From assembly GCA_016933215.1 (NCBI GenBank), contig JAFGBH010000020.1:1-61934 (forward strand): a stretch of 61,934 bases of DNA, read 5' to 3'. This document shows, piece by piece, positions 35,226 through 54,879 of the stretch. The notes beneath the pieces are model-generated. The model was not told where the DNA came from. It made no database searches and saw only the letters and a list, made by a program, of their open reading frames with translations. Numbering within the stretch: the first letter of the stretch is position 1; every line of letters begins with the position of its first letter. A program made the translations under genes and the position numbers. This stretch comes from Deltaproteobacteria bacterium (GTDB taxonomy: Bacteria > Desulfobacterota > Syntrophia > Syntrophales > UBA2210).

Positions 35226-37727
35226 ATGGGAGAACCGGCAATATCAATAGTAGAACATGAAAAAAGGCAGGAGTGGTGGTGGGCGGCCGAAAAAAAACGT
35301 TCGAGCAGGCTCGACTACCTGAGAAAGGCAATATGGAAAAAGGGCGCTATCGGGGGTCTCTATCCTCAGGGGCTCTATGTCGATCTTGAACGACCCGTAT
35401 TGCAGACCGAAAAGGCACGTGAACTTGAATCTTCTCCCGATCCGTACGTTATCAAGTTTGCAAAGATCCTCGCACATGTGCTCGATAACAAAACGATTTT
35501 TATTACAGACCACTCGCAGCTTGTCGGGTACCTTGGAAGTCTGCCGAATACGATTACCTGGGATCCTACGCTGGCCGCAGTCTTGAATCATGAAGTCGTC
35601 AATGATCCGACCTGTATTCAAGAGCCTTTGGAAGAGAGTCTGAAAATAATCTCAGAGGTTGCAGATTATTGGGCGGGAAAATCGGATCTGGACAAGATAA
35701 TGCCCTACTTGGATCTTGACGATGCCATGAAGGTCCTCTCCGGCGCCATCGGATGGGGTGTTCCGCTTTCTAGGGGTGGGTATTCCGGAAAGGATTATGA
35801 GTACATCATGACCGGTGTGCATGCCTTTGAGGATATTATTGAAGAGCTTGACAGGAGGATCGATGAAGCGGACGAAAAGGCCCATGAACCGGGGGCATCG
35901 AAAGAAATCAGCGATCTCTATGACAAGATGAATATGTGGGAGGCGATGAAGATCGCCCTGGAGGCCGGTATTCGGTATGCAAAACGCTATGCACGCCTCG
36001 CGAGGATAATCGCGGAAAATTACGAAACCGACGATGAGAGAAAAGAAGAACTCTTGCAGATTGCCGAGGTCTGTGAACACGTGCCCGCCAAACCGCCGAG
36101 GACACTGCAGGAATCGCTCCAGTATGATCTCTTTATCCAGCTTTTCAGCAGAAACGAGGCAATCGAAGGTGCGTGGCCGGCACGACCCGACTATTATCAT
36201 GGCCCCTATTACGAGAAGCAGGTAAACGTTGATAAGACCCTGACGAAGGAAGAGGCCCTCGATCTTGCCGGTGAATTCCTCATCCGTGCCGCGGAGGTTT
36301 CTCAGTATAAAGTCAAATGGGCTCGTGAGGGACTGCAGGGAATCGAGGGAACATGGGTATGGACACTTGGGGGCGTGAAGAAGGATGGAAGCGATGCGTG
36401 CAACGGGATGACGATTGCTCTTCTCCAGGCGTCACGACTGGTGAGGGTCGCAAATCCCACCTTTGCATTCAGATGGCATCCCAAGGTGTCGGATGAAGTG
36501 ATGCGAGAGGTCTTTGAATGCATACGCCAGGGGCTCGGGTATCCGTCGATACGAAACGATCCCGTTCTTATCGCGAATGCCATGAACTGGCACGGCCATC
36601 CGATAGAAGAGGCCCGGACATGGGCCCACCAGGCTTGTATGTCTCCTGCCCCATGCACGAAACACGGTTTCCAACCTATGAGAATGGCAAACGCGACCGT
36701 CAACTGTGCAAAGATAATCGAGTATGTCTTTAGCAGTGGGTTCGACAACGTTGTGAACATGCAGATTGGAGCTGAGACACCCGATGCGGCGACATTTACG
36801 GAATATAACCAGGTTTTCGATGCCTGGGTTACCCAGATGAAAACCGTATTCAGCATTCTCGTCCGGCCGGTGAATAGGGCAAGGATCCTTGCACCCAAGA
36901 TGACGCCGAGACCCTTTCTTTCGGCAATATCGGAGCGATCGATCGAGAGTGGCCTGGATGTGTGTGATCCTTCTATCAGCAGGGGAAATGCATGGATTAC
37001 GGCCTTTACCTGGGTTGAGAACGCCGACAGCCTGGCAGCGATCAAGAAACTGGTCTTTGACGAGAAGAAGTACACTATGGCCGAACTCAAGGAAGCCCTC
37101 GCCAACGACTGGCAGGGCTACGAGGAAATGCGCCTTGATTTTGTGAAAAATGCACCCAAGTGGGGTAACGACGACGATTATGTCGATACCATCATGCTCG
37201 ACTGTCTGCATGAGGCAGCCAAGTTCTCGCGGGAACTTAAGTGTCCCAGTGGAAACAGCTGGCCGATCCTGCCGGAAAACGTGAGTGGTAATATTCACTA
37301 TGCAAATATCGTGGGTGCCCTACCCAACGGCCGTAGACTCGGTGATGCCCTCTACGATGGTGGTATCTCGCCAGGGCCTGGTCTTGATAAGAAAGGACCG
37401 ACAGCAGTGCTCAAATCTTGTTCCAAGATTGACCATATTTCCGACGGTCGGGCCTTTCTTTTGAACCAGAGACTTTCGCCGACCCAGCTTGCCGGAGAAA
37501 AGGGCTATCAGCTCTGGAAGACCTACATGAAAACCTGGGCCGATCTCGGACTTGATCATGTTCAGTTCAACTGCGTGTCTGATGAGATTCTGAGAAACGC
37601 ACAGAAGGACCCCGAAAAGTACCAGGAGGTAATCGTACGGGTCGCGGGGTACAGCGCACACTTCGTGGATATAAGCCGAAAGACGCAGGATAACATTATC
37701 CAGAGAACCGTCCAGGGGTTGGGGTAA
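35226..37727 (+). CDS. Catalytic subunit of a fumarate-adding glycyl radical enzyme (BssA/AssA-like)
   Basis: An 833-aa glycyl radical enzyme. The thiyl-radical Cys471 is in HQACMSPAPCTKHG, Arg486 (QPMRMAN) lies 15 residues later like the fumarate-binding Arg of BssA, and Gly808 is in VRVAGYSAHF near the C-terminus. The Cys-Gly distance (337) is nearly that of BssA. The N-terminal YPQGLYVDLERPVLQTEKA and the TWVWTLGGVKKDG region also follow the X-succinate synthase clade. It should add a substrate C-H bond across fumarate without oxygen. Hydrocarbon class is not fixed by sequence; the mutase, ligase and carboxyltransferase genes favour an alkane-type route. GGGGGA precedes the ATG. Confidence 0.88.
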   Translation: MGEPAISIVEHEKRQEWWWAAEKKRSSRLDYLRKAIWKKGAIGGLYPQGLYVDLERPVLQTEKARELESSPDPYVIKFAKILAHVLDNKTIFITDHSQLVGYLGSLPNTITWDPTLAAVLNHEVVNDPTCIQEPLEESLKIISEVADYWAGKSDLDKIMPYLDLDDAMKVLSGAIGWGVPLSRGGYSGKDYEYIMTGVHAFEDIIEELDRRIDEADEKAHEPGASKEISDLYDKMNMWEAMKIALEAGIRYAKRYARLARIIAENYETDDERKEELLQIAEVCEHVPAKPPRTLQESLQYDLFIQLFSRNEAIEGAWPARPDYYHGPYYEKQVNVDKTLTKEEALDLAGEFLIRAAEVSQYKVKWAREGLQGIEGTWVWTLGGVKKDGSDACNGMTIALLQASRLVRVANPTFAFRWHPKVSDEVMREVFECIRQGLGYPSIRNDPVLIANAMNWHGHPIEEARTWAHQACMSPAPCTKHGFQPMRMANATVNCAKIIEYVFSSGFDNVVNMQIGAETPDAATFTEYNQVFDAWVTQMKTVFSILVRPVNRARILAPKMTPRPFLSAISERSIESGLDVCDPSISRGNAWITAFTWVENADSLAAIKKLVFDEKKYTMAELKEALANDWQGYEEMRLDFVKNAPKWGNDDDYVDTIMLDCLHEAAKFSRELKCPSGNSWPILPENVSGNIHYANIVGALPNGRRLGDALYDGGISPGPGLDKKGPTAVLKSCSKIDHISDGRAFLLNQRLSPTQLAGEKGYQLWKTYMKTWADLGLDHVQFNCVSDEILRNAQKDPEKYQEVIVRVAGYSAHFVDISRKTQDNIIQRTVQGLG

Positions 37728-49069: not shown

Positions 49070-50698
49070 TTACGGTGTGTAGAGCACCACGAGGCATCGT
49101 GTCGCTTCGTCTGAGAGGCTTCTCAGCTTGTGGGGTGTTTCGGAGTTGAAGTGTATTGATTCGTGCTGTTTCAGTTTGTGTACCTTACCCCCCAGTGTCA
49201 GCTCAAGATCACCCTCCATGACATAGATGTATTCCTCTCCCTCATGCTTGTAGGCAACGGGCTTGTGGGCCTGTTTCGACTCGATGGTAATCATGAATGA
49301 TCGAAGATGTTCGTTCTCGGTACCGGGGGTCAGTGTCTGGTAGGAATAGTTCTGTGTCCGTTTGACGAACTGCTGTGTTCGCTGATCCCGTATCATCGCC
49401 TTTTCGCTTTCGTGGAGGAACGTGCCGGGATCGACATTGAATGCACGGGAGAGACGAAGCAGAAAACTGACCGAAGGTGAAATCTCGTCCTTTTCGAACT
49501 GTTCGATAAATTCGGGAGACTGCCCCGTTGCGAAGGCGAGTGATTCCCTCGACCACCCGTGAGATTCCCTGAGCTTCAGAAGCTTTTCTCCGAAACCGGA
49601 CGTTTTTTCTTCGCCCGTCTCTTTGGTTTCATACAGGGTGTCGGTGAGTGATCGCATCACGGTTTGCCTCACCTTCGATGCAAAGATCGGGAGAAATGTG
49701 GCTGCATCGGCCGCGATGCCGATGTCGGCAATCTGAAAAATAGGGGCATTGAGATCGCGGTTAATTGCCACGATGGTTTTTGCATCGGTAATTCCCGCGG
49801 TATACTGGATCGCACCGGAGGTTCCCACAGAGATAAGAAGGTCGGGGTGGACGGTCTTTCCCGTCTGACCGATGAGATTATCCTCTTTTATCCAGTGTTG
49901 CAATACCGGCGGTCGGGTCGCGCCGACCTCTCCGCCCAGAGCGGCTGCCAGATCGCGTACCATTCCGAACCCGTCTGCGGTTCCGAGACCGGCACCGCCG
50001 GCGACGACGATTTCGGCCTCTTCAAGCTTTTTCCGTCCTTCAAGCTCATAGGTGCTCGATAAAAGTTCGATACCTTCCGGGATTGCGACGCTCTCAACGG
50101 TGATCCGTTCTATCGTGCCGGGATTTCCGGAACTGTTGACTGGCTGGATTCCATGGGGCTGTACCGTGGCAAAACCGGTGGTGTGAAAGTTTTCTCTATA
50201 GGTGATCTCAGCGAGTATCTCTCCGCCCCAGGATGGGCAGGATGCGACGATCCTGCCGTCTTTCATCGCCAGATCAACACAATCGGCTATGAGGCCGGCA
50301 TTACTGAGCCGTGCGGTCCGCGCCGCCAGATCCCTGCCGAATTCAGTCAGGGGAAAGAGGACAAGCATGGGAGCACGGGATTCCACGGCATCGGATAGCA
50401 CCGGCGCATAGATATCGGTTCTCGGAATGGCCAGAGTCGGATTTTCAAAAATGAAAACCCTGTCGGCACCGTGGGAAAGACATCTGTCGGCTGCTTCATT
50501 AATGGGAATACCCGGAATTTCCATGGTCGTTTCTGATGCTGAATTCGCCGATGAACCGATCACAATGGCGATAATTGTGCCCGAGACGGAGTGGTTCAGC
50601 TCATAGGCCCTGGCCAGGACGTTGAGGCTGAGCGTAAACAGCCGCTCGTTTCTGAGATCAGTATAAACCCAGATTGCTTTCTTTTTCTTTGTTCCCAT
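49070..50698 (-). CDS. ETF alpha subunit fused to an XRE-HTH and cupin
   Basis: A 542-aa three-domain protein. Residues 1-345 are an electron-transfer flavoprotein alpha subunit with a complete FAD site (GQTGKTVHPDLLISVGTSGAIQ, 277-297; VAINRDLNAPIFQIADIG, 310-327). Residues about 368-428 form an XRE-type HTH (LLKLRESHGWSRESLAFATGQ; SVSFLLRLSRAF). Residues about 455-540 are a cupin (HEGEEYIYVMEGDLEL; IHFNSETPHKLRS). HTH-cupin proteins usually exist as separate regulators. The frame is open without stop through the linker. It starts 7 bp after etfB, as a normal ETF pair. It could report flavin redox or acyl-CoA flux to transcription; that is inference. Confidence 0.88.
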   Translation of the reverse strand: MGTKKKKAIWVYTDLRNERLFTLSLNVLARAYELNHSVSGTIIAIVIGSSANSASETTMEIPGIPINEAADRCLSHGADRVFIFENPTLAIPRTDIYAPVLSDAVESRAPMLVLFPLTEFGRDLAARTARLSNAGLIADCVDLAMKDGRIVASCPSWGGEILAEITYRENFHTTGFATVQPHGIQPVNSSGNPGTIERITVESVAIPEGIELLSSTYELEGRKKLEEAEIVVAGGAGLGTADGFGMVRDLAAALGGEVGATRPPVLQHWIKEDNLIGQTGKTVHPDLLISVGTSGAIQYTAGITDAKTIVAINRDLNAPIFQIADIGIAADAATFLPIFASKVRQTVMRSLTDTLYETKETGEEKTSGFGEKLLKLRESHGWSRESLAFATGQSPEFIEQFEKDEISPSVSFLLRLSRAFNVDPGTFLHESEKAMIRDQRTQQFVKRTQNYSYQTLTPGTENEHLRSFMITIESKQAHKPVAYKHEGEEYIYVMEGDLELTLGGKVHKLKQHESIHFNSETPHKLRSLSDEATRCLVVLYTP

Positions 50699-50705
50699 AT
50701 TTACG

Positions 50706-51482
50706 TTAAGTGATTAGTCCCGTTTCTTTGATCCGTTCTATAAGCACTTCCGCCTGTTCTTCGAGAGTACCCTCAAGGAACTCGCATTTTCTCTCCCGTG
50801 TCATCTTTTTCATGGAAAGAACCTCCGTGGGGGATCCTTTCTTCCCCACGAGTTTGGGATCAAGCGAAAGATCGTTGAGAGTCCAGGTCTCGATCTTCTT
50901 TTTTTCAAAGGCCTCCTCGATTCCACTCAGCGGAATATCCCTCGGTTTCACCGATGCGGGATGAACCGTCAGTGCCGCGGGAAGGGAGAGATTGTATTCC
51001 TCTCTGAATCCGTCGACTTTACGTTCCACACGGAGAAGAGGTTTTTCATAATTCAAGGAAGAAACTCCTGTTACCAAAGGTATGTCGAGGGAGACGGCGG
51101 TCTGGGGGCCGACCTGGCCCGTATCGCTGTCGTAGGTTCTTGTTCCGAAAAGGACGATGTCGTAGGGTTCGAGTTTCTTTATCGCCGCTCCCAGTGCCTT
51201 CGATGTTGCCAGGGTATCAGAATCACCGAGCCTGGGGTCGCTGAGGAGCACTCCCCTGTCTGCACCCATTGCAATCGCCTCGTGAAGCACAAAGGCGCAG
51301 GATTTCGGTCCCATGGATAGGGCCGTGACCGTTCCGCCCTCTCTTTCGACCAGGGCGATGGCCGATTCCAGGGCGGGTCTGTCAAAGAGGTTCATCTCCG
51401 CCGTCTCGGCCGACCGAATGATTCCGTTTTCCGGTGCCTTTGTGACGACGGATTTGATGCAGACTATGATATGAAGTGCCAT
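50706..51482 (-). CDS. etfB: Electron-transfer flavoprotein beta subunit
   Basis: A 258-aa EtfB. It has MALHIIVCIKSVV, NLFDRPALESAIALVEREGGTVTALSMGP, the adenine-binding ADRGVLLSDPRLGDSDTLATSKALG and DTGQVGPQTAVSLDIPLVTGV. It forms the heterodimer with the fused EtfA encoded 7 bp downstream and passes electrons from the acyl-CoA dehydrogenase encoded 43 bp upstream towards the membrane. Start ATG at 51482 follows GGAATC. Standard length. Confidence 0.92.
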   Translation of the reverse strand: MALHIIVCIKSVVTKAPENGIIRSAETAEMNLFDRPALESAIALVEREGGTVTALSMGPKSCAFVLHEAIAMGADRGVLLSDPRLGDSDTLATSKALGAAIKKLEPYDIVLFGTRTYDSDTGQVGPQTAVSLDIPLVTGVSSLNYEKPLLRVERKVDGFREEYNLSLPAALTVHPASVKPRDIPLSGIEEAFEKKKIETWTLNDLSLDPKLVGKKGSPTEVLSMKKMTRERKCEFLEGTLEEQAEVLIERIKETGLIT

Positions 51483-51525: not shown

Positions 51526-52677
51526 TTACTTGGCGTAATCCTTCAGTACTTCTCTCGCTATTACCATCTGATGAATCTCCGAGGTTCCCTCGTAAATTCG
51601 TGTTACCCTGGCGTCCCGGTAGTATCGCTCAACGGGATAGGATTTTGAGTATCCGTATCCTCCGTGAATCTGGACCGCCATATCGGTTATCCTACTCGCT
51701 GCTTCGGAGGCGTATAATTTGGCCATTGCCGATGCCCGGGAGAAATGCTTTCCCTGATCGCGAAGAAGGGCCGCCCGGTAAACCATGAGACGCGCCGCTT
51801 CCAGTTCGGTTGCCATATCAGCGAGCATTGCCTGGATTGACTGATGCTTTCCTATGGAAACCCCGAACTGCTGTCGCTGATTTGCGTATCGTGCCGATTC
51901 TTCAAGGGCGGCCTGGGCGATTCCCACCGCCTGGGCAGCGATCCCGATTCTTCCCGTGTCGAGGGCCATAATTCCTATCTGAAATCCCGTCCCCTCTTCA
52001 CCGAGAAGGTTTTCCGCAGGGATTTTGCAATCATAGAGGCGGATAGAGGTAACGGGATTTGCCCTCATGCCGCAGAGGTCTTCCAAGTCACCTACCACGA
52101 ATCCCGGTGTTCCCCTCTCTGCCACGACAACGCTGATTCCCCTTCGCCCGGCATCCGGATCTGTTCTCGCGAAGATGAGGCATATATCCGCCACGCCGCC
52201 ATTGGTTACGAAGACCTTGTTTGCATTGACTAGATAGCCTTTCTTGTTTCTGATGGCTGTTGCTTCTACTCCGGCCGCATCGGAGCCGGCATTTGGTTCG
52301 GTGAGGCAGAAGGCACCGATTTTCTCGCCCCGTGCGAGGGGGGGTATCCATCGCTTTTTCTGCGTTTCCGATCCGAACGCCATGATCGGATATACAGCGA
52401 CGCTGTTATGAACGGTGACGCAAAGCCCGAGGCTTCCGCATGCACGGGAGATTTCCTCAATAGTAATGACGCAACTTAACGAATCCATCCCGGATCCGCC
52501 CAGCTTTTTCGGTACCTGGATTCCGAAGTAACCGAGTTTTCCCATCATCTCGATCACTTCCCAGGGGAAGCGTGCCTCCCGGTCAATCTCGCCGGCAATC
52601 GGCATGATCTCGCGTTCGCAGAATGCTCTTACGGAGCGTCTGACGGCACGATTTTTTTCTGACAGAAACGTGTTCAT
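51526..52677 (-). CDS. Acyl-CoA dehydrogenase
   Basis: A 383-aa flavin acyl-CoA dehydrogenase. FAD and substrate motifs are clear: GAFCLTEPNAGSDAAG, NKVFVTNGGVADICLIFA, a mid-domain GIAAQAVGIAQAALEESARYANQRQQFG, and the C-terminal AVQIHGGYGYSKSYPVERYYRDARVTRIYEGTSEIHQMVIAREVL. The catalytic base Glu lies in YEGTSE as in the short-chain enzymes. It feeds electrons to EtfBA encoded next. In the proposed route it would oxidise the acyl-CoA after removal of the extra carboxylate. First gene of a three-gene minus-strand unit that converges on the glycyl radical operon. Confidence 0.93.
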   Translation of the reverse strand: MNTFLSEKNRAVRRSVRAFCEREIMPIAGEIDREARFPWEVIEMMGKLGYFGIQVPKKLGGSGMDSLSCVITIEEISRACGSLGLCVTVHNSVAVYPIMAFGSETQKKRWIPPLARGEKIGAFCLTEPNAGSDAAGVEATAIRNKKGYLVNANKVFVTNGGVADICLIFARTDPDAGRRGISVVVAERGTPGFVVGDLEDLCGMRANPVTSIRLYDCKIPAENLLGEEGTGFQIGIMALDTGRIGIAAQAVGIAQAALEESARYANQRQQFGVSIGKHQSIQAMLADMATELEAARLMVYRAALLRDQGKHFSRASAMAKLYASEAASRITDMAVQIHGGYGYSKSYPVERYYRDARVTRIYEGTSEIHQMVIAREVLKDYAK

Positions 52678-53037
52678 ATTGTCTCTCGTAATTTACAGGA
52701 AATACGGTTTGTTAGCTCTTTAAATCGAATGATAAGGACGGAAGCTACCAGAATTTGGTAACCGAGTCAATAATTCTCTTGCACTCAGATCGTGTCTGTA
52801 TTGCGAAAAGAATCAGAAATGATGAGGTGCTCAATATCTGCACATTAAAGAAACCTTTTCCTTGCCTGTTTACGGGCGTTGATCCTGTCTTGAATCAATC
52901 GAAAGAACTGACCATAAAGAAAGGTGCCTTTACTCGTAGAAATTATCAATAAAATAAGCTAGTATAGATCGAGAAATAAAGAAAATCCCATTCGTGTCGT
53001 AATTATAGAGAATCTGAAATATACAAAGAGGTCTCAC
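52678..53037. other. Divergent intergenic region, no gene seen
   Basis: This 360-bp stretch lies between the divergent acyl-CoA dehydrogenase and permease genes and must hold both promoters. On the minus strand TTGACT near 52771-52766 is followed after 17 bp by TAGCTT, a weak -35/-10 pair. No sigma-54 element and no TGGGT-N7-ACCCA dyad is seen, so control of the ETF unit probably differs from that of the main operon. Confidence 0.35.
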
Positions 53038-54879
53038 ATGAATCTCGAGAAGAAGTTGGGTTTTCTCGATGTATTCTGTATCGCCAGCGGAGCAATGATA
53101 AGTTCCGGACTGTTCGTGCTGCCTGGTGTTGCACATGCATATGCGGGACCGGCAGTAGTTTTTTCCTACTTATTTGCAGGCCTTCTTGTTACCAGCGGCA
53201 TGCTCAGTGTCGCCGAAATCATCACCGCCATGCCGAAGGCCGGAGGCGACTATTTTTTCATCACACGGACGATGGGTCCGGCGGCCGGTACGGTGGCGGG
53301 TCTCTTAAGCTGGTTTTCCCTGACACTAAAAAGCTCTTTCGCTCTCGTCGGCATGTCGGCATTTCTTTACGTTGTCGTGGACTGGGAGCCGCACATCACG
53401 GCAATCATAATCTGCATGGTCTTCATTGCGATCAATATTATCGGAACCAAAGAATCGGGGAGACTGCAGGTCGTTCTTGTAGTCATACTTTTGGCTCTGA
53501 TGCTCTTATATATCTTTCGAGGCGTTGCACACATCGATAGCCGTCACTTTATACCCTTTGCTCCCTTTGGATGGCACTCCGTCTTTGCAACTGCCGGTAT
53601 CGTTTTCATCTCCTATGGCGGTCTTTTGAAGATCGCCTCGATTGCCGAAGAGATCAAAGACCCGGGGAAAGTCATACCGTTCAGCATGATCAGCGCGCTT
53701 ATTGTCATTTCAATATTTTATACTCTCATGGTTTTCGTAACGACGGGAGTTCTCAGTTCTGAGGACCTCGATGGTTCCCGCACCCCAATCTCACTGGGTG
53801 CCATGGCCTTCATGGGCCGATCGGGTATGATTATAATGAGTGTGGCGGCAGTGCTCGCTTTTGTCTCGACGGCGAATGCTGGTATCATGACCGCCTCCCG
53901 TTATCTTCTGAGCCTGAGTCGAGACAAACTCATATCACCACTTTTCGGTATCGTTAATGCCCGGTTTCAGACTCCCCACATAGCTGTCGTGACAACCGGC
54001 CTGTGCGTTATCGGGGCGCTCTTTCTCGATCTTGAAATTCTCGTGAAAGCTGCCTCAACCGTCTTAATTTTAACGTACATCCTTGCAAATTTGTGCCTCA
54101 TTATTCTCCGTGAGAGCCGGCTGCTCAATTATCAGCCCAAATTCAGAGCACCTCTCTATCCGTATCTGCCGGTGGCCGGAATTCTCGGCTATATCGTGCT
54201 TCTCCTTGAGATGGGAGTTGGGGCCCTTGTAATGAGCGGGGGGCTTATTGCGGGCGGACTTTTTTTCTACTGGTTCTATGGACGGATAAGAGCGGAGCGA
54301 GAGTACGCTATTTTGCACCTGATCGAACGAATCTCAAATCGCGCATTGACCGGGGGACTGCTTGAGTCTGAACTCAAGGACATCATTCGAAACCGTGATG
54401 ACCTGTGTTTTGACAGATTTGATGAGATTGTCGAAAAGGCAATTGTTGTCGATTATACCGAGAGTTCAAACACCGAAGAATTATTCTCGTTTATCAGTGA
54501 ATTGATTGAAAAACACTATAATTTCAACGCAGATGCGGTACAGCGGGCACTTATGGATCGGGAACGTGCTGGTTCCACAAATCTCCTCCCAGGATATGCC
54601 ATATCCGATATCATTGTCGATACCGAGAATTTCTTTTCGATGATTCTGATTCGTTGTAGCGAGGGAATTCTCCTGAGAGAGGGTGAATCTCCGGTTCATG
54701 CCCTTTTCGTGCTCGTTACATCGCGAGACGAGCGCGATTTCTACCTGCAGGCAGTGGCGTCAATTTCACAGATTATTCAGATGCGCTCGTTCGATAAACG
54801 CTGGTCTGAGGCCCGGACCGAACAGCAGCTTCGAGACCTTATTCTACTGGGCGAACGGCGACGGGTATGTCAGCTTTGA
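53038..54879 (+). CDS. APC-family amino-acid permease with C-terminal degenerate EIIA-like domain
   Basis: A 613-aa protein. Residues 1-425 form a twelve-segment APC transporter (KLGFLDVFCIASGAMISSGLFVLPGVAHAYAG; AEIITAMPKAGGDYFF; SIAEEIKDPGKVIP). Residues about 435-613 resemble a PTS EIIA type 2 (Ntr/fructose) domain, recognised from RERAGSTNLLPGYAISD, HALFVLVTSRDER and LRDLILLGERR. In active EIIA the AIPH histidine is phosphorylated; here that site reads AISD, so the tail is likely a non-phosphorylatable regulatory domain. Substrate is unknown. GGT lies a few bases before the ATG. Confidence 0.82.
   Translation: MNLEKKLGFLDVFCIASGAMISSGLFVLPGVAHAYAGPAVVFSYLFAGLLVTSGMLSVAEIITAMPKAGGDYFFITRTMGPAAGTVAGLLSWFSLTLKSSFALVGMSAFLYVVVDWEPHITAIIICMVFIAINIIGTKESGRLQVVLVVILLALMLLYIFRGVAHIDSRHFIPFAPFGWHSVFATAGIVFISYGGLLKIASIAEEIKDPGKVIPFSMISALIVISIFYTLMVFVTTGVLSSEDLDGSRTPISLGAMAFMGRSGMIIMSVAAVLAFVSTANAGIMTASRYLLSLSRDKLISPLFGIVNARFQTPHIAVVTTGLCVIGALFLDLEILVKAASTVLILTYILANLCLIILRESRLLNYQPKFRAPLYPYLPVAGILGYIVLLLEMGVGALVMSGGLIAGGLFFYWFYGRIRAEREYAILHLIERISNRALTGGLLESELKDIIRNRDDLCFDRFDEIVEKAIVVDYTESSNTEELFSFISELIEKHYNFNADAVQRALMDRERAGSTNLLPGYAISDIIVDTENFFSMILIRCSEGILLREGESPVHALFVLVTSRDERDFYLQAVASISQIIQMRSFDKRWSEARTEQQLRDLILLGERRRVCQL

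Follow-up and report, generated by a model that had tools for sequence, protein, structure and literature searches.

An electron transfer flavoprotein alpha subunit fused to an XRE-type helix-turn-helix and a cupin in an acyl-CoA dehydrogenase operon

The fusion gene and its operon

The stretch of DNA analysed here (the window) comprises the 61,934 nucleotides of contig JAFGBH010000020.1 (assembly GCA_016933215.1) from a deltaproteobacterium of the order Syntrophales. A single 542-codon open reading frame (ORF) on its minus strand (49070-50698) encodes EtfA, the alpha subunit of electron transfer flavoprotein (ETF), joined to an XRE-type helix-turn-helix (HTH) and a cupin. ETF is the common electron carrier of acyl-CoA oxidation. 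Pfam assigns four domains to the 542-residue protein, all of which exceed the curated cut-offs: ETF at residues 10-202 (E 3e-23; 82.9 bits, cut-off 26.7), ETF_alpha at residues 224-303 (E 2e-28; 98.6 bits, cut-off 27), HTH_3 at residues 374-425 (E 7e-10), and Cupin_2 at residues 474-538 (E 6e-15). An earlier note, made from the letters of this DNA alone, had read EtfA, an XRE HTH and a cupin in one frame, and the ORF and its Pfam domains bear out that reading.

Along the chain, domain I of EtfA (residues 10-202; 50093-50671, minus strand as for all features of the operon) is followed by domain II with the site of the alpha flavin adenine dinucleotide (alpha-FAD; residues 224-303, 49790-50029), a variable linker from the C-terminal helix of EtfA to the HTH (about residues 348-367; 49598-49657), the HTH itself, which is net acidic (residues 369-428; 49415-49594), and the cupin (residues 471-542; 49073-49288), in which Y483, H485, G487-E488-E489 and H523 are invariant. 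Two genes lie immediately upstream on the same strand, namely etfB for the partner subunit (50706-51482; 258 residues; Pfam ETF, E 7e-37), with C. difficile EtfB (5ol2_B) as the best match in the Protein Data Bank (PDB), and acd for an acyl-CoA dehydrogenase (Acd) of the short-chain/butyryl type (51526-52677; 383 residues; best PDB match Bcd, 5ol2_C), which carries the YEGT motif of the catalytic Glu. The operon is preceded, at 52742-52770, by a putative sigma-70 promoter, TTGACT-N17-TAGCTT, which has an extended -10 TGG.

Spread and ancestry of the fusion

The earlier note had proposed a search for the same domain order in other genomes and a check of the linker length. Searches covering the order, a sample of the phylum and one further order recovered 41 full-length in-frame fusions of equal architecture in 40 genomes and 12 families, mostly from uncultured bacteria, and four further copies interrupted by contig ends. 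The nearest relative is 75% identical and lies on JAFDAR010000089.1, a contig of a deltaproteobacterial metagenome-assembled genome and the only source of a fusion in one broader contig scan; the most distant fusions are about 34-36% identical. Plasmid and phage searches gave no match spanning 80% of the query. The gene order acd-etfB-etfA::HTH::cupin is kept in nearly every fusion locus, with etfB directly upstream of the fusion in 39 of 39 loci with sufficient contig and acd upstream in 38 of these 39, and no conserved neighbours other than these two genes were found around the operon in the loci compared. In every one of the 41 fusions, 31-35 residues separate the FLP motif of EtfA from the FG motif of the HTH.

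Across the 41 fusions the cupin is the most conserved domain, with a mean column entropy of 0.94 bits, followed by EtfA domain II (1.21), the HTH (1.39) and EtfA domain I (2.01); the linker is the least conserved stretch (2.58). The ratio of nonsynonymous to synonymous substitution rates (dN/dS) of close pairs is 0.02-0.07 in most pairs for the cupin, 0.06-0.35 for the HTH, and mostly highest for the linker, and purifying selection acts on EtfA, HTH and cupin alike. Because the homologues are many, the joint is of constant length, the operon is conserved and selection is purifying, the EtfA-HTH-cupin protein is a real, old and selected fusion and not a chance join. A product of faulty assembly, a missed stop or a frameshift, for which the earlier note had pointed to 49600-49670 as the place to look, was rejected and retains practically no probability; although many of the genomes are fragmented assemblies, no positive evidence for such an artefact was found, the joint is open in every homologous fusion, and the identical join, with purifying selection on both sides, recurs in 40 genomes including the single-contig and low-contig assemblies G473, G206 and G345. 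One genome (G552) holds two divergent fusions (L127 = C231, L128 = C123), each with its own acd and etfB.

The behaviour of the linker also bears on the possibility that the module is merely a co-delivered regulator or scaffold, which would be released by cleavage of the linker or would act alone, attachment serving stoichiometry or localisation only. The high entropy and dN/dS of the linker would suit such an arrangement, but its length stays at 31-35 residues in every fusion, and none of the loci examined has the two parts split into neighbouring genes, so that co-delivery appears improbable.

Regarding the origin of the module, three trees each group the HTH-cupin parts of all 41 fusions in a single clade (support 0.86, 0.96 and 0.93), and its sister clade (support 0.92) consists of stand-alone proteins of about 185 residues encoded next to acd genes. 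A stand-alone HTH-cupin gene lies beside an acyl-CoA dehydrogenase gene in 32 of the 45 loci examined. These comprise 13 loci from the order and 19 of the 20 retrieved from the phylum at large, with the two genes adjoining and on one strand; eight other stand-alone HTH-cupins, which form a separate group, are not beside an acd. The genome of the window has a stand-alone paralogue of its own (G000 C24; 45% identical), whose gene is flanked by those for a thiolase and another acyl-CoA dehydrogenase in the operon at L095:7062-10009. As the sister clade consists of acd-adjacent genes, the module had a tie to acyl-CoA oxidation before its capture, in agreement with the link to acyl-CoA oxidation drawn in the earlier note. 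The fused module thus appears to be a control module of acyl-CoA oxidation, and it was captured once by the ETF of another acd operon. No description of the phylum-wide pair of stand-alone HTH-cupin and acyl-CoA dehydrogenase genes was found in the open-licence literature searched. A different XRE-cupin is encoded at the head of a 2-oxoacid:ferredoxin oxidoreductase operon of the same genome (G000 C60; L096:7223-12208).

A pre-fusion state, with a separate HTH-cupin gene directly behind etfA, was considered and is absent from every unfused locus examined. In genome G456, the same operon (L083:5022-8105) encodes an unfused EtfA, which nests within the fused EtfA clade and therefore suggests a secondary loss of the module; at another locus, this genome retains a pair of acd and a stand-alone HTH-cupin gene. 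In the G155/G194/G229 group the two halves are placed differently, the EtfA outside the main fused EtfA clade and the HTH-cupin inside the fused clade, so that the history of the EtfA half is resolved in part only.

The flavin sites and the cupin pocket

The ETF parts find their best sequence and fold matches in the EtfAB-dehydrogenase complexes of C. difficile (5ol2) and A. fermentans (4kpu), with which the fusion shares the parts of the operon, the EtfA domains, the alpha-FAD motifs and the Acd-docking Arg. When the 41 fused EtfA were aligned with 35 unfused ones, the alpha-FAD motifs GATRP, GQTGK and SGAxQ proved to be kept in every fusion or nearly every one; the SGA and Q residues are present in all 41 fused EtfA and GQTG in 40-41 of them. 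R262, present in 40 of the 41, matches R243 of C. difficile, the Arg that docks EtfA domain II on Bcd (PMC5691135). With such an operon and such motifs, the ETF half probably works with its Acd and EtfB, as the earlier note had supposed from the adjacent genes.

Another Arg of EtfA (R136 in C. difficile) contacts N5 of the beta-FAD and is described as strictly conserved in bifurcating ETFs (PMC5691135). At this position the fused EtfA have Cys (28 of 41), Ser (10) or Val (3) and never Arg, compared with Arg in 13 of the 35 unfused EtfA. The residue in the protein of the window is Cys154; the EtfA called intact at first is thus intact in its alpha-FAD motifs and lacks the beta-FAD Arg of a bifurcating EtfA. 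In addition, the His of SGAIQH is replaced by Tyr in 38 of the 41 fused EtfA, including the present one (SGAIQY). Because the Arg contacting the beta-FAD is missing from every fused EtfA, the fused ETF is probably non-bifurcating, with a retuned alpha-FAD site, and a bifurcating ETF, which the best PDB matches had suggested, was rejected. The replacement of R136, the mostly SGAxQY motif and the extra C-terminal HTH-cupin distinguish the fusion from the 5ol2 and 4kpu proteins. In the solved complex, domain II, which holds the alpha-FAD, turns through about 80 degrees to move between EtfB and Bcd, and the C-terminus of EtfA is flexible (PMC5691135). The HTH-cupin module is attached exactly at the C-terminus of domain II.

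In the cupin, three of the four usual metal-ligand positions are kept (H485, E489 and H523), and Tyr483 replaces the first His. R447, Y451 and Y453 are invariant beside them, in the fused and stand-alone forms alike. Judged from these residues, the most likely role of the pocket (H485/E489/H523, R447, Y451, Y453 and Y483) is to bind a metal, a small ligand linked to acyl-CoA flux, or both. For a structure model of the C-terminal part (mean predicted local distance difference test score, pLDDT, 78), the closest folds are those of 1y9q, an XRE-cupin regulator, and 6b8w, the cupin of a regulator, followed by HppE, MPnS and HEPD, and the profile match of the module to 1y9q spans both the HTH and the cupin. 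The full-length model (mean pLDDT 74; predicted template modelling score, pTM, 0.44) does not define where the module sits with respect to EtfA.

HppE is an Fe(II) enzyme. The mononuclear iron enzymes HppE and MPnS/HEPD share the HTH and cupin layout with the module, whose His/Glu/His set resembles the metal ligands of HppE. The cupin might be a catalytic metal site that draws on ETF electrons, as an oxidoreductase or isomerase of the HppE/MPnS kind, and the HTH would then serve structure or oligomerisation, as it does in HppE. After 1y9q, Foldseek ranks these enzymes as the best full-length matches to the C-terminal model (E 5e-11 to HppE 1zz7_B), the candidate metal ligands and the neighbouring Arg and Tyr residues are invariant, and the adjacent flavin chemistry could supply electrons. 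VIA-align superimposes the module on the HTH-cupin fold of HppE with Z up to 13.0 but with a root-mean-square deviation of 10.7 over both domains, and the identity to HppE, MPnS and HEPD is low, about 13-22%. The repressor PuuR also shows a KHQGEE...PH motif; therefore, the His/Glu/His triad is not a marker of an enzyme. Identical pocket residues occur in the stand-alone, regulator-like relatives, and the hosts appear to be anaerobic, which is at odds with HppE-type chemistry, as this requires O2 or peroxide. Unlike HppE and MPnS/HEPD, the module is fused to EtfA and comes with no sign of phosphonate chemistry. A catalytic cupin is thus given a slim chance.

The helix-turn-helix and the likely output of the module

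Known XRE-cupin inhibitors (i.e., ErfA, PsdR and PauR; PuuR and SutR of E. coli; and 1y9q of V. cholerae) resemble the module in having an XRE HTH followed by a cupin of equal size. The genes of XRE-cupin inhibitors also sit with their metabolic genes, as the module does (PMC7901475). These regulators are free-standing proteins of about 180-200 residues with an N-terminal HTH, whereas the module forms residues 369-542 of a 542-residue EtfA chain and its HTH is acidic. The trifunctional proline utilization A protein, PutA, is a further relative in design, a catabolic flavoenzyme with a regulator domain in one chain (PMC5293562); the fusion is likened to it by architecture only, and differs in that an electron carrier bears an XRE-cupin at its C-terminus. 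No account of an ETF joined to an HTH-cupin was found in the open-licence literature searched; one paper there lists etfA, cupin and XRE as unrelated entries. ETF and XRE-cupin proteins (PMC7901475) are already known, as are flavoenzymes that include a regulator domain (PutA, PMC5293562), and what appears new is the ETF-HTH-cupin combination.

The earlier note had envisaged a direct signal from the flavoprotein to DNA. In this sense, the fusion could be a PutA-like trigger enzyme acting as an autogenous transcription factor. When domain II is disengaged from Acd and EtfB, at low acyl-CoA flux or in a given flavin redox state, the HTH-cupins would dimerise on DNA and repress the operon, and flux would release them. 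XRE-cupin proteins are indeed local repressors that bind palindromes as dimers (PMC7901475), PutA provides the precedent of a flavoenzyme carrying a DNA-binding domain (PMC5293562), the stand-alone relatives adjoin the acd genes that they may regulate, and the HTH is retained and conserved in the fusions. The putative TTGACT-N17-TAGCTT promoter precedes acd, and similar promoter-like elements were recognised by eye before acd in several orthologous loci.

The charge of the HTH points the other way. The mean net charge of the HTH core is -2.1 in the fusions vs. +3.0 in 27 XRE domains of related genomes (p 7e-11), and that of the recognition helix with the following loop is -3.3 vs. +0.35 (p 2e-9), a statistical acidity measured against the best-scoring HTH_3 matches. 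The cores of known regulators carry charges of +2 (PuuR) and +4 (SutR) in E. coli and +3 (SinR), in contrast with the acidic fused HTH. R377 and E402, the two HTH residues invariant in all groups, correspond to the structural Arg10-Glu35 pair of 434 repressor; since the pair looks structural, its invariance says nothing for DNA contact. No dyad or palindrome shared before acd rose above shuffles among 31 upstream regions, in which several acd genes are internal to operons, and sites may differ by lineage or lie elsewhere. Taken together, the acidic HTH and the missing shared operator make DNA binding less likely, and the signal from flavin to DNA is left unsupported. A PutA-like trigger enzyme is therefore a serious but less probable alternative. 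Its redox-gated form is unlikely. In that form the swing of domain II would follow how far the ETF-dehydrogenase complex is reduced and loaded with acyl-CoA, and would be relayed via the tethered HTH-cupin to DNA, so that ETF, the electron carrier of beta-oxidation, would act as a transcription factor that signals flux to the genome.

The fusion is tentatively best read as a ligand- or metal-sensing HTH-cupin control module built into ETF, which acts on the function or assembly of ETF-Acd. An Acd-EtfB-EtfA operon, for which we infer acyl-CoA oxidation or, with the opposite direction of electron flow, enoyl-CoA reduction, would have captured an XRE-cupin module once, long ago. The flexible joint of 31-35 residues would tether the module to the C-terminus of the domain that carries the alpha-FAD and is expected to swing between EtfB and the dehydrogenase. 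Binding of a metal and/or a small ligand linked to acyl-CoA flux in the invariant cupin pocket may alter the pairing or docking of the module, and the changed pairing or docking may set the activity or assembly of ETF-Acd. Action on DNA would be possible as well, and is the less likely output because the HTH is acidic.

Several points weigh against this preferred reading, besides the statistical nature of the acidity. Some acd-adjacent stand-alone HTHs are likewise acidic, with mean core charges of -3.6 in the order and -1.3 in the phylum, compared with +2.5 for the orphan stand-alone proteins. Given that many acd-adjacent relatives have a low net charge, an acidic HTH unique to the fusion was rejected, and the fusions clearly exceed these relatives in acidity at the recognition helix alone. 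The HTH keeps its fold under purifying selection, as expected of a DNA reader, and comes from a family that looks like ordinary XRE-cupin regulators. Finally, G456 keeps the operon without the module, so that at least one ETF of the clade can do without it.

If a control module acting on ETF-Acd is indeed present, a lineage-wide ETF with an attached sensor would show how apparently anaerobic fatty-acid degraders living near thermodynamic limits tie ETF traffic to demand. The fusion also offers a handle on the stand-alone HTH-cupin and acyl-CoA dehydrogenase gene pair found across the phylum.

Converging with the fusion operon, a plus-strand set of CoA genes encodes two enoyl-CoA hydratases, an AMP-forming acyl-CoA ligase, a carboxyltransferase of the methylmalonyl-CoA decarboxylase type and a phosphoenolpyruvate carboxykinase. 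A second regulator-type fusion lies near the EtfA fusion at 53038-54879 (plus strand), where a 613-residue APC amino-acid permease (PF13520) carries a C-terminal PTS_EIIA_2/PtsN-like domain (residues 469-602; E 7e-15). At 35226-37727 (plus strand) the window encodes an 833-residue glycyl-radical enzyme resembling pyruvate formate-lyase, and on the contig of the nearest fusion orthologue (L035) a long ORF downstream of the fusion resembles, by eye, an activase/glycyl-radical enzyme.
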